Position numbers and translations under genes: made by a program. Positions 11,538 through 18,415 of a stretch of 64,000 bases of DNA are shown piece after piece; the first letter of the stretch is position 1; each line of letters begins with the position of its first letter. Origin of the DNA: Microbacterium sp. BR1 (lineage in GTDB: Bacteria; Actinomycetota; Actinomycetes; Actinomycetales; Microbacteriaceae). The DNA is taken from positions 124,001-188,000 of the forward strand of contig NZ_NMUN01000002.1 in assembly GCF_002812725.1 (NCBI RefSeq), in the 5' to 3' direction. Under the pieces are notes generated by a model. That model had not been told where the DNA came from, ran no database searches, and saw only the letters and a program-made list of their open reading frames with translations.

Positions 11538-12404
11538 ATGCCCCTCGACGACTCGACTCTCGACAACATGGGCCGCAGCGAGGCTCTCGGCAGCGTCGGG
11601 CAGGCGCGGGCGGATGCGCGGGCACGCGAGACGCAGTCGCGCTGGATGCCATATGTCCCGGCAAGCGGAACGCCGACCCCGCCCGTGGGGATCGATCCGG
11701 CGACGCTGCTGTGGTCCGAGACCGTGGCGCCCGGTGGCTACACGCACCTGCGCGTGGCCCGGGGCACGCGCATCCGGCTCGAGGACCCCGAGGGGGACGC
11801 CTCGGCGAGCGTCGTGATGTTCAATGCCCTGAATCCGGGTGAGCGGCTGAACGTCGCCGATACGCAGAAGATCCCATGGCAGGCGTATCTCGGTGCCCAC
11901 CACCCCCTGCTGTCGGGCGACGGGCGCGTGCTCGCGACGATCCTCGAAGACACGTCCGGTCATCACGACGCGTTCTGCGGGGCATCCGGCGACGCGTGGA
12001 ACGTGCACAAGTACGGGGACGCGACGCCCGAGGGTCCGACCCCTTCGGGGCACGCCCTGCTCCGGATGGCGGGGGCGAAGCACGGCCTCGGGCGTCGCGA
12101 CATCCCACCGGCGGTCTCGTTCTTCCAGGGCGTGCGGGTGCTCGAAGACGGCGCCTTCGATTGGCGCGGTTCCGCCGGTGCCGGGACGCACGTGGACCTG
12201 CTCGCCGAGCTGCCGCTCATCGTCCTGATCGCCAACGCGCCGCACCCGCGGGATCCGCGCCCCGATTACGTCGTCGCGCCCCTCCGCGTCCACGCGTGGA
12301 CCGAGCGCGCCAGTCGCGAGGGGGACGCCCACGTGGACGCGACGCCCGAGCGTCAGCGCGCCTACCGCAACTCGATCGCCTACGCGGCCCTCGCCGGACT
12401 CTGA
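11538..12404 (+). CDS. DUF1989 protein (UAAP1), likely carboxyguanidine deiminase subunit
   Basis: 288 aa. Belongs to the urea-amidolyase-associated protein 1 family (DUF1989). Visible features are VAPGGYTHLRVARGTRIRL, FNALNPGERLNVADTQKIPW, and a candidate metal-binding patch HHDAFCG (His142, His143, Cys147). Members of this family were long of unknown function; paired DUF1989 proteins were then shown to form carboxyguanidine deiminase, which turns carboxyguanidine into allophanate. First gene of the five-gene cassette, with SD GGAG 5 nt before the ATG and an operator just upstream. The family call is firm. The guanidine role is inference from family and context. Confidence 0.88.
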   Translation: MPLDDSTLDNMGRSEALGSVGQARADARARETQSRWMPYVPASGTPTPPVGIDPATLLWSETVAPGGYTHLRVARGTRIRLEDPEGDASASVVMFNALNPGERLNVADTQKIPWQAYLGAHHPLLSGDGRVLATILEDTSGHHDAFCGASGDAWNVHKYGDATPEGPTPSGHALLRMAGAKHGLGRRDIPPAVSFFQGVRVLEDGAFDWRGSAGAGTHVDLLAELPLIVLIANAPHPRDPRPDYVVAPLRVHAWTERASREGDAHVDATPERQRAYRNSIAYAALAGL

Positions 12405-12417
12405 AGGAAGCAGCGCC

Positions 12418-16100: not shown

Positions 16101-16730
16101 GCGTACATGTGCATCTACGGCATGGAGGGTCCCGGCGGGTACCAGTTCGTCGGCCGCACGGTGCAGATCTGGAATCGCTTTCGTCGAGGCGCGCTGTTCG
16201 ATGAGAACCCCTGGGCGCTGCGGCCCTTCGACCGCATCAAGTGGTACCCGGTGTCGGCCGAGGAACTGCTCGACCTGCGCGCAGACGTGGACGCCGGGCG
16301 CGGTGACTTCCGCACCGAAGAGGGCCGCTTCGCGCTCGCCGAGTACGAGGAGTTCCTGGCGGCGGAGGCCGAATCGATCCGGGCGTTCCGAACGACCCAG
16401 CAGGCCGCGTTCTCGGCCGAGAAGGATGCGTGGCGCGCTTCGGGCGAGTTCGAGCGCACCTACGACGCACCTCCCGCCCCGGCCGCCGACATCGTCGTGC
16501 CCGAGGGGTGCGAGGCCGTGACGGCTCCGTTCGCGGCGAGCGTGTGGCGCGTCGACGTGGAGCAGGGGTCGCAGGTCGAGGTCGACGACCGGCTCGTCGT
16601 CCTCGAGGCGATGAAGATGGAATCGCCCGTCCTGTCCCCGGCGGCGGGTCGTGTCGCCGCCGTCTATGTCTCACCCGGCGAGCGTGTCGCCGCCGGTCAG
16701 GTTCTCGCAGCAGTGGAGGTTTCGTCATGA
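13134..16730 (+). CDS. uca: biotin-dependent urea/guanidine carboxylase
   Basis: 1198 aa, normal for the family. Domains: biotin carboxylase (about 1-450, with [10 protein letters not shown] and ATP-grasp [13 protein letters not shown]), KipA/AHS2-type carboxyltransferase half (about 455-760), KipI/AHS1-type half (about 790-1010), the [20 protein letters not shown] region, and C-terminal BCCP with biotinyl Lys1161 ([10 protein letters not shown]). It carboxylates urea or guanidine with ATP and bicarbonate. Asp705 sits in GALDFTGD, where yeast urea amidolyase, as I recall it, has Asn (GAINFTGD); Asp there is reported to mark guanidine carboxylases. Together with the two DUF1989 genes this favours guanidine. 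ATGA overlap with atzF. Confidence 0.93.
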   Translation: [1198 protein letters not shown]

Positions 16731-18415
16731 GTGTCGTGAGCGCGGTCGAAAAGGTCCAGCAGGCGTACGAGCGGATGGCTTCTGCCGACCGCCCCGAGGT
16801 GTGGATCGCCCTGCGCGACGAGTCCGATGTGCTCGCCGAGGCGCGCGCGCTCGACGCGCGGGTCGCCGCGGGCGAGCGCCTCCCGCTCGCGGGCGTGCTC
16901 GTCGCGGTCAAGGACAACATCGACGTCGCCGGACTCTCGACAACCGCCGGATGCCCCGCGTTCGCGTACGCGCCCGAGGCGGACGCGCCATCCGTGGCCC
17001 GGCTGCGGGCCGCGGGTGCGATCGTGCTCGGCAAGACCAACCTCGATCAGTTCGCGACGGGCCTCGTCGGCACGCGCAGCCCTTACGGCGCCGTCCGCAA
17101 CGCGTGGCAGCCCGACCGCATCTCGGGTGGCTCCAGCTCGGGATCCGCGGTCGCCGTCGCGTTGAGTTTCGTCGACATCGCCCTGGGCACCGACACCGCC
17201 GGGTCCGGCCGGGTCCCCGCGGCCCTGAACGGCATCTACGGGATCAAGCCGAGCGTCGGACTCGTCCCGACGACCGGCGTCGTGCCGGCGTGCTGGTCGA
17301 TCGACGTGGTCACGGTGTTCGCCCGCGACCTCGGTCTGGGTCGTCTCGCGGCCGAGACGATGGAGGGTGCGGACGGGATCGATCCGCTCGTGCGGGTCGC
17401 GGAGCCCGGGCCGGGACTGGGGGCCGCGCCGCGCGTCGCGATCCCGACCGTCGAGCACCTCGAGGGGCTCGCGCCGGGCTGGGCCGAGGCGTTCCAGGGC
17501 GTCGTCGAGCGACTCGCGGCGTCGGGGGTCGACGTCGTCGAGGTCGACATCGCCCCGCTGCTCGATGCGGCGGCATTGCTGTACGGCGGGGCCTTCGTCG
17601 CCGAGCGGACCGCCGCGGTGGGCGACTTCATCCGCCAGAACGCGGAACTCATCGGTGGCGAAATCGACCCGACGGTCGCGACGATCGTCGGAGGCGGCGA
17701 GCGGTTCACCGCCATCGACGCCTTCCGGGACCGCGAACGCCTGCGCCGCCTGGGCCTTGCGGGAGCCCGGCTGCTCGAGGGGACCGACGCGCTCCTGACC
17801 CCCACGACGACCTGGCATCCGACGCTCGCCGAGGTCGCCGCCGACCCGATCGGCGCCAACGCGCGCATGGGTCGCTACACGAATTTCGCCAACCTCCTCG
17901 ACTACGCCTCGCTCGCGGTCCCCGCGGGAACGGTCGGCGGGTTCCCGTTCGGCGTCATGCTGACGGCGCCCGCCTTCAGCGACCGCCGCCTGGCCGAGCT
18001 GGCGCGACGGATCGGGGATGCCCAGATCGACATCCTGGTCGTGGGCGCTCATCTCACGGGTCAGCCGCTGGGCCACCAGCTGATCGCCGCGGGCGGACGA
18101 TTCTCGCGCCGGGTGCGCACGTCGCAGTCCTATCGCCTGCACGCGCTGCCGACCGTGCCCCCCAAGCCGGGGCTTCGCCGGGTCGAGCGTGAGGGGTACG
18201 CGATCGAGGGTGAGGTCTGGACACTTCCGGCGCACGGCTTCGGTGCGTTCGTCGCGTCCCTGCCCCAGCCCATGACGATCGGCCGGGTCGCGCTCGAGGA
18301 CGGCACCGCGGTGGCGGGATTCCTCGCTGAGCCGGTCGTGTTCGAGGACGCGCCGGACATCAGCGGGTACGGCGGATGGCTTGCCTATCTCGCGCGGGAT
18401 CAGAGCGCAGAATAG
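16727..18415 (+). CDS. atzF: allophanate hydrolase
   Basis: 562 aa from the ATG overlapping the carboxylase stop. Amidase-signature enzyme that converts allophanate to ammonia and CO2. The Ser-cisSer-Lys triad is visible: Lys62 (VAVKDNID), Ser136 in GGSSSGS, nucleophile Ser160 in GTDTAGSGRVPA, with the expected 24-residue spacing. The C-terminal domain (about 440-562, VVGAHLTGQPLGHQLIAAGG and PKPGLRR) is the extra domain that distinguishes true allophanate hydrolases from other amidases. Last catabolic gene of the cassette; no transporter or urease gene is nearby. Confidence 0.95.
   Translation: MSVVSAVEKVQQAYERMASADRPEVWIALRDESDVLAEARALDARVAAGERLPLAGVLVAVKDNIDVAGLSTTAGCPAFAYAPEADAPSVARLRAAGAIVLGKTNLDQFATGLVGTRSPYGAVRNAWQPDRISGGSSSGSAVAVALSFVDIALGTDTAGSGRVPAALNGIYGIKPSVGLVPTTGVVPACWSIDVVTVFARDLGLGRLAAETMEGADGIDPLVRVAEPGPGLGAAPRVAIPTVEHLEGLAPGWAEAFQGVVERLAASGVDVVEVDIAPLLDAAALLYGGAFVAERTAAVGDFIRQNAELIGGEIDPTVATIVGGGERFTAIDAFRDRERLRRLGLAGARLLEGTDALLTPTTTWHPTLAEVAADPIGANARMGRYTNFANLLDYASLAVPAGTVGGFPFGVMLTAPAFSDRRLAELARRIGDAQIDILVVGAHLTGQPLGHQLIAAGGRFSRRVRTSQSYRLHALPTVPPKPGLRRVEREGYAIEGEVWTLPAHGFGAFVASLPQPMTIGRVALEDGTAVAGFLAEPVVFEDAPDISGYGGWLAYLARDQSAE

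Follow-up and report, generated by a model that had tools for sequence, protein, structure and literature searches.

A five-gene cassette (positions 11538–19088, + strand) was analysed in a 64,000-nucleotide stretch of contig C2 of the 3.8-Mb Microbacterium sp. BR1 genome, the whole of which is called the window below. Its genes encode, in order, two DUF1989 proteins, a biotin-dependent carboxylase, an allophanate hydrolase and a TetR-family protein, and it is very probable that they form a guanidine carboxylase pathway controlled by the AmtR-type repressor encoded by the fifth gene, with probable activation by GlnR and probable release of the repressor by guanidine or an intermediate of the pathway, the whole being inserted in the treY–treZ operon. 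As a pathway, the set of guanidine carboxylase, CgdAB and allophanate hydrolase is already known (Schneider 2020 and Sinn 2021, as cited in PMC11410670; papers are cited here by PubMed Central number), and the new part is the proposal that the missing effector of AmtR is guanidine or such an intermediate.

In the proposed scheme, the carboxylase, with Asp705 at its discriminating position, would convert guanidine, ATP and bicarbonate to carboxyguanidine, which the two-subunit DUF1989 enzyme would deiminate to allophanate, and AtzF would convert allophanate to ammonia and CO2. AmtR would bind a palindrome at 11508–11527, over the likely promoter, and repress the operon; GlnR at 11477–11492 would probably activate it under nitrogen limitation, and guanidine or an intermediate of the pathway would probably bind AmtR and release it from the DNA. 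The sequence analysis itself establishes the gene content, the two diagnostic residues, the identity of AmtR, the operator and the conservation of these features together; the enzyme activities and the repression are assigned from what is known of these families, and the GlnR activation and the AmtR effector are proposed more tentatively.

Gene content and diagnostic residues

The cassette consists of the following genes, given with the two codons that bear on the substrate.

11538–12404, + strand: DUF1989 gene of the UAAP1 family, predicted carboxyguanidine deiminase subunit, named CgdA by gene order (PF09347, 3.8e-46; TIGR03425, 274.5 bits, cut-off 205.95)
12418–13125, + strand: DUF1989 gene of the UAAP2 family, predicted second carboxyguanidine deiminase subunit, named CgdB (PF09347, 2.4e-60; TIGR03424, 298.8 bits, cut-off 284.7)
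13134–16730, + strand: predicted guanidine carboxylase, annotated urea carboxylase, biotin-dependent, 1198 amino acids (TIGR02712, 1738.2 bits, cut-off 1303.85)
15246–15248, + strand: codon of Asp705, in the column of Kluyveromyces lactis (K. lactis) Asn1330, the substrate discriminator (alignment)
15984–15986, + strand: codon of Asp951, in the column of K. lactis Asp1584, the second required Asp (alignment; rule from PMC11410670)
16727–18415, + strand: atzF, allophanate hydrolase with amidase and AH_C domains (TIGR02713, 663.7 bits, cut-off 511.05; PF21986)
18420–19088, + strand: AmtR-type TetR repressor, 222 amino acids, ATG at 18420 (phmmer; AlphaFold and Foldseek)

The initial annotation of this DNA had described two DUF1989 genes, a biotin carboxylase and AtzF in one tight operon, and this description holds: all four genes pass the curated cut-offs, with profile scores too strong for chance, and they are separated by 13, 8 and −4 nucleotides. 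The AmtR gene, which starts 4 nucleotides after the allophanate hydrolase gene and whose own 3′ end overlaps treZ by 4 nucleotides, was absent from that annotation, which likewise mentioned neither the operator nor the surrounding trehalose operon. The adjacent DUF1989 genes represent both carboxylase-associated families, TIGR03425 and TIGR03424, an assignment made by the cut-offs of these profiles, the published criterion being monophyly of CgdA/CgdB in a PF09347 tree; the allophanate hydrolase (TIGR02713, PF21986) lies within the same cluster.

All three parts of the carboxylase (biotin carboxylase, carboxyltransferase and biotin domains) were found, and the protein aligns end to end with the K. 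lactis urea amidolyase (3va7/5i8i, 1053–1055 bits). It had been claimed that Asp705 occupies the column that discriminates urea from guanidine carboxylases; the alignment to 5i8i, counted by hand, places it in column 1330, where K. lactis has Asn, and not elsewhere. Asp951 corresponds to K. lactis Asp1584, according to a hand count on the same alignment and a scripted check. The criteria in print for a guanidine carboxylase are Asp at both positions (PMC11410670), and the single-residue Asp/Asn rule is also given in PMC12186494; the window carboxylase carries both Asp residues and lacks the Asn expected at column 1330 of a urea carboxylase.

The discriminating column was occupied by Asp in 77, by Asn in two and by Met in three of the 82 loci having it. 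In a separate residue table drawn from 80 named loci, 58 were left out because they have no residue in this column, most of them being other biotin carboxylases. Among the 22 other carboxylase loci in the family sample, 21 combine Asp with both DUF1989 genes.

Several loci depart from the common pattern. The three Met-type carboxylases (L181, L238 and L239; GGIMLAGD and similar) cluster on long branches of the carboxyltransferase tree, and their loci contain DUF1989 genes, with neither AmtR nor a box near a pathway gene; perhaps they act on another substrate. On the same tree, Clavibacter lycopersici L054 falls within the same-family loci L043/L046, which makes Microbacteriaceae the most likely family of the window. 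The carboxylase of L053, whose record bears the name Streptomyces sp. uw30, groups with that family and not with other Streptomyces, because of either transfer or a record that is mislabelled or mixed. In mycobacterial and related loci (L178, L220, L222–L227, L248–L255 and others), the carboxylase matches at most residues 423–1136 of the window protein, so that this type appears to lack the domains for biotin carboxylase and biotin carrier. Additionally, L179 and L180 are cgdA-cgdB-atzF clusters, 70–78% identical to that of the window, without any carboxylase; L179 adjoins hydantoinase A/B and FAD oxidoreductase genes and L180 adjoins phosphotriesterase-family and YjgF-like genes, neighbourhoods that possibly provide another source of carboxyguanidine.

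The AmtR-type repressor and its predicted operator

Sequence comparison and a predicted fold both identify the product of the fifth gene as an AmtR-type repressor. Its phmmer matches are the AmtR proteins of Mycobacterium smegmatis (M. smegmatis; 5e57, 5.6e-30) and Corynebacterium glutamicum (C. glutamicum; 1.5e-27), the next family following at 5.1e-11, and its AlphaFold model (predicted local distance difference test score 86, 11 sequences) retrieved only AmtR chains at Foldseek ranks 1–14; solved AmtR proteins are thus its nearest relatives in both sequence and fold.

The following elements precede the first gene.

11508–11527, + strand: AmtR box TTTCTGTCAGTTGACAGAAA, predicted operator (0 mismatches; one match in the window, 0.04 expected)
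11503–11508, + strand: TGTAAT, possible −10 element that extends into the operator (judged by eye)
11477–11492, + strand: GlnR-like box GAAAC-ACGGGG-GAAAC, putative activator site (fits the M. smegmatis GlnR consensus)

The motif TTTCTaTCGatCGAtAGAAA was obtained by a palindrome-constrained de novo search of 31 upstream regions (log-likelihood 200.5 at width 20, against 32.0–34.4 in three shuffles), and this search preceded the recognition of the TetR gene as AmtR. It agrees with the published AmtR box, which is of the 22-bp TAtCTGTCa-n2-cGACAGATAT type (PMC8864220), so a predicted AmtR box stands at the target promoter, at 11508–11527. The only other place in the genome with up to three mismatches to the box has three. 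In operons with an APC permease, the flanks of the box differ (ACCTGTC-N4-GACAGGT) and the core is kept.

The coupling of AmtR with the pathway extends well beyond the window. Among 199 genomes of the family, the 22 with a located Asp-type locus are the same 22 that carry AmtR at an E value of 2.3e-31 or better, and the remaining 177 genomes reach 7.6e-15 at best. Of 345 genomes of the class, 38 have CgdB over the cut-off, and AmtR (profile A2, E 1e-60) lies within approximately 10 kb in 30 of them; CgdB was not found in C. glutamicum, one of the control genomes of this search. Moreover, an exact core box is located close upstream of a pathway gene in 48 of the 57 Asp loci with a nearby AmtR ("near" meaning tblastn E 1e-15 or better), where 73 boxes were counted against 2.7 expected. 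Of 13 Asp loci without a nearby AmtR, one has such a box, and its genome carries AmtR elsewhere (L182/G376).

The 1e-60 level gave 38 AmtR places, eight of them not beside the pathway: four have neither a box nor a pathway gene, and in the other four (L171, L172, L173 and L175) AmtR is divergent from a family-5 ABC transporter, away from pathway genes, with two exact boxes each. It is possible that these ABC transporter loci are the uptake arm of the same regulon.

Residues D102, E121 and R134 (numbered from ATG 18420) are invariant in the 32 pathway-linked AmtR proteins, position 166 is acidic in all 32 (31 Glu and a single Asp, that of the window), and Y117 and Y141 are kept in 31. According to a hand count on the phmmer alignment, M. 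smegmatis AmtR keeps the residues of the pathway-linked proteins at positions 102, 117, 121, 134, 141 and 166; in the C. glutamicum protein, counted likewise, position 102 is Glu, 121 is Ile, 134 is Arg, 141 is Phe and 166 is Ser, the last being placed less securely because a gap is close by. The acidic and aromatic residues would suit a guanidinium pocket, which they may line.

The GlnR-like box fits the consensus Gn2AC-n6-GnAAC of M. smegmatis (PMC3662644), and in that species the homologous operon is GlnR-activated. Boxes of this type (GnnAC-n6-GnAAC) occur within 110 bp of 39 of the 76 exact AmtR boxes, against 1.85 expected.

Control by a guanidine riboswitch was also considered for the window operon and rejected: Rfam scans for Guanidine-I to -IV gave no match at gathering score in the window or in any of 40 other AmtR-bearing loci. 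At the same time, the same scan found guanidine-I or -II in three (L055, L056 and L073) of six Asp loci without AmtR, all outside Actinomycetota. AmtR and the riboswitch therefore look like alternatives.

Chromosomal setting and transport

The cassette is flanked by genes of trehalose synthesis.

6802–9018: glgX/treX, upstream of treY
9015–11390, + strand: treY, malto-oligosyltrehalose synthase, left neighbour of the cassette (TIGR02401, 855 bits, cut-off 498.65)
19085–20842, + strand: treZ, malto-oligosyltrehalose trehalohydrolase, right neighbour of the cassette (TIGR02402, 724.9 bits, cut-off 538.8)

A treZ gene is present in 43 of the 59 congeners searched. In the best 30 of these 43 loci, which include that of the window, treY directly precedes treZ in all 29 others, ending 5–117 nucleotides before it (match ends), and neither AmtR nor AtzF was found between the two genes in these 29. 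The 7.7-kb cassette at 11391–19084 is thus peculiar to the window among the loci examined, and conservation of its position across the genus was rejected; the expression of treZ may now rely on the guanidine promoter.

The nearest relative of the window carboxylase (L044, 84%) belongs to another genus, and a divergent sodium symporter gene there also has an AmtR box. The congener G513 has its own copy of the cassette (L183), arranged with a symporter and a divergent AmtR. Since the cassette is unique between treY and treZ, its closest carboxylase comes from another genus and the congener copy is arranged otherwise, it was probably acquired, and a transporter was probably lost or never brought along. 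In 20 of the 21 other Asp loci of the family a transporter is linked (10 APC, 6 SSF and 4 ABC), the remaining locus ending at a contig edge. None of these three types matches in the window, so a hidden transporter there was rejected. In the whole genome, the SSF query gave no match in a search without a positive control, and the APC query gave matches of only 26–30% identity, the ABC type not being searched there. The stretch of Microbacterium halotolerans L061 likewise contains none of the three types.

Alternative readings and known systems

That the carboxylase is a true urea carboxylase, the operon degrading urea as annotated, is highly improbable: NCBIfam does name TIGR02712 urea carboxylase and TIGR03424/TIGR03425 urea amidolyase associated proteins, and the M. 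smegmatis papers do describe the homologous operon as one of urea degradation, but the discriminating column holds Asp and not Asn, urea degradation has no step for a DUF1989 pair, and the sole Asn-type locus of the family sample, L052, has no DUF1989 pair, no AmtR gene and no box near a pathway gene. A DUF1989 pair is not known to accompany urea carboxylase or urea amidolyase. The statement of the initial annotation that urease and a urea transporter are missing stands for the operon and fails for the genome, where contig C9 (L136) carries ureB, ureC, ureF, ureG and ureD with a NicO nickel transporter gene, and UrtA (C9:240994–242067; 507.5 bits against a cut-off of 492.75) lies approximately 0.75 kb from the ureB open reading frame on the opposite strand; urea therefore has its own route, which strengthens the guanidine reading of the operon. 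Asp705, Asp951, the DUF1989 pair, AtzF and the separate urease together support the earlier proposal that the "urea carboxylase" label is wrong and that substrate would flow from guanidine through carboxyguanidine to allophanate. A guanidino derivative such as methylguanidine or guanylurea as the real substrate, with guanidine as a side substrate, is improbable as well. The window has no linked transporter of the guanidine type, Vreelandella runs the pathway downstream of methylguanidine (PMC12508155), and DUF1989-AtzF clusters without a carboxylase do occur (L179, L180); nevertheless, the operon holds no additional dioxygenase, lyase or hydrolase gene, and the diagnostic residues are those of characterised guanidine carboxylases.

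The effector of AmtR is a more balanced matter. We give about an even chance to the proposal that, over most Actinomycetota, AmtR is a protein guanidine sensor that represses via CTRTC-N4-GAYAG and leaves the DNA in response to guanidine or an intermediate of the pathway, the GlnK-controlled AmtR of Corynebacterium being a derived form that has lost the acidic residues. That AmtR instead responds to nothing but the general nitrogen status (by way of GlnK, antisense RNA or competition with GlnR), with no small-molecule effector and with guanidine irrelevant, is a serious possibility, which we rate a little short of even. The binding of M. smegmatis AmtR is reportedly called ligand-independent in a J Mol Biol abstract (Petridis, 2016). 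In the accounts of PMC8864220 and PMC4617892, adenylylated GlnK releases C. glutamicum AmtR, for which no small effector is known; the M. smegmatis protein is described as a GlnR competitor and as being under antisense RNA (PMC10704036, PMC4617892), and urea and amino acids at 0.5–5 mM did not release it from DNA (PMC4222082). These effectors were, however, chosen in keeping with the urea label of the operon, and PII in mycobacteria reportedly does not control the transcriptional response (PMC4617892). D102, E121, R134 and an acidic residue 166 are shared by the pathway-linked proteins and M. smegmatis, whereas C. glutamicum has I, F and S in place of E121, Y141 and E166, and AmtR takes the place of guanidine riboswitches across these operons; both points favour a guanidine sensor.

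Some observations weigh against the proposed guanidine–AmtR system. L060 (a metagenome-assembled genome of Hyphomicrobium, outside the phylum) has an Asn-type carboxylase together with a DUF1989 pair, so the substrate cannot be read from the pair alone, and a strict rule by which it implies Asp was rejected. AmtR is unlinked in eight of the 38 class genomes with CgdB, lying elsewhere in two and giving no match at E 1e-60 in six. In nine of the 57 AmtR-bearing Asp loci, no exact box lies close to a pathway gene: L041 is cut off by the end of its contig, the copies in L042, L047, L048 and L071 are imperfect, and L066, L186, L220 and L222 have none exact. L066 (Sorangium), the most distant locus counted as AmtR-bearing, has no box at all. 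GlnR nitrogen control persists without AmtR in M. smegmatis (PMC4222082). Finally, the treY–cassette–treZ order is unique to this genome, so expression could differ here, and the window lacks the linked transporter of its relatives.

The structure, operator and one-operon regulon of actinomycete AmtR have been available since 2013–2016, yet no effector has. The AmtR gene and operator of the window link this unsolved regulator to a substrate, and the guanidine reading makes the effector question answerable by a single binding assay. No publication linking AmtR with guanidine, nor a guanidine test on AmtR, was found in open-licence PubMed Central, and guanidine riboswitches, which are the known sensors of guanidine in bacteria, are in the words of a review the sole guanidine-specific stress response known (PMC12186494). 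If the proposal is true, AmtR does in Actinomycetota the job of riboswitches in other phyla, its missing effector is supplied, the M. smegmatis "urea" regulon is reassigned to guanidine, the "urea" annotation of a widespread operon is corrected, and the account of the origin of the global nitrogen regulator of C. glutamicum is changed.

The window operon resembles the known guanidine carboxylase pathway in its four genes, both diagnostic Asp residues and the predicted reactions, and differs from it in having AmtR and its box in place of a riboswitch, no linked transporter and a location between treY and treZ. The K. lactis urea amidolyase (3va7, 5i8i) is homologous end to end, with Asn1330 where the window has Asp705. 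C. glutamicum AmtR (5dxz, 5mqq) belongs to the same family (1.5e-27) and recognises a similar operator, CTAT-N6-ATAG (PMC8864220), but governs a global regulon with GlnK release and is without E121, Y141 and the acidic residue 166. A further close parallel is in M. smegmatis, one of ten Actinobacteria in which AmtR co-occurs with a permease-urf1-urf2-urea carboxylase-amidase operon; there, deletion of AmtR raises the transcripts of the operon and AmtR binds its promoter, and the authors regard any function given to urf1, urf2, the carboxylase or the amidase as highly speculative (PMC4222082). Operon, repressor and operator type are alike, urf1/urf2 presumably being the DUF1989 pair by position; at the same time, amtR is unlinked in M. 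smegmatis, a permease is part of the operon, the operon is read as one of urea degradation, and the relatives of its carboxylase match the window protein only over the carboxyltransferase part. In the eight mycobacterial genomes with the AmtR most similar to that of M. smegmatis (83–94% identity; none of the identified genomes was that of M. smegmatis itself), all eight carboxylases are of the Asp/Asp type and stand beside cgdA, cgdB and atzF.

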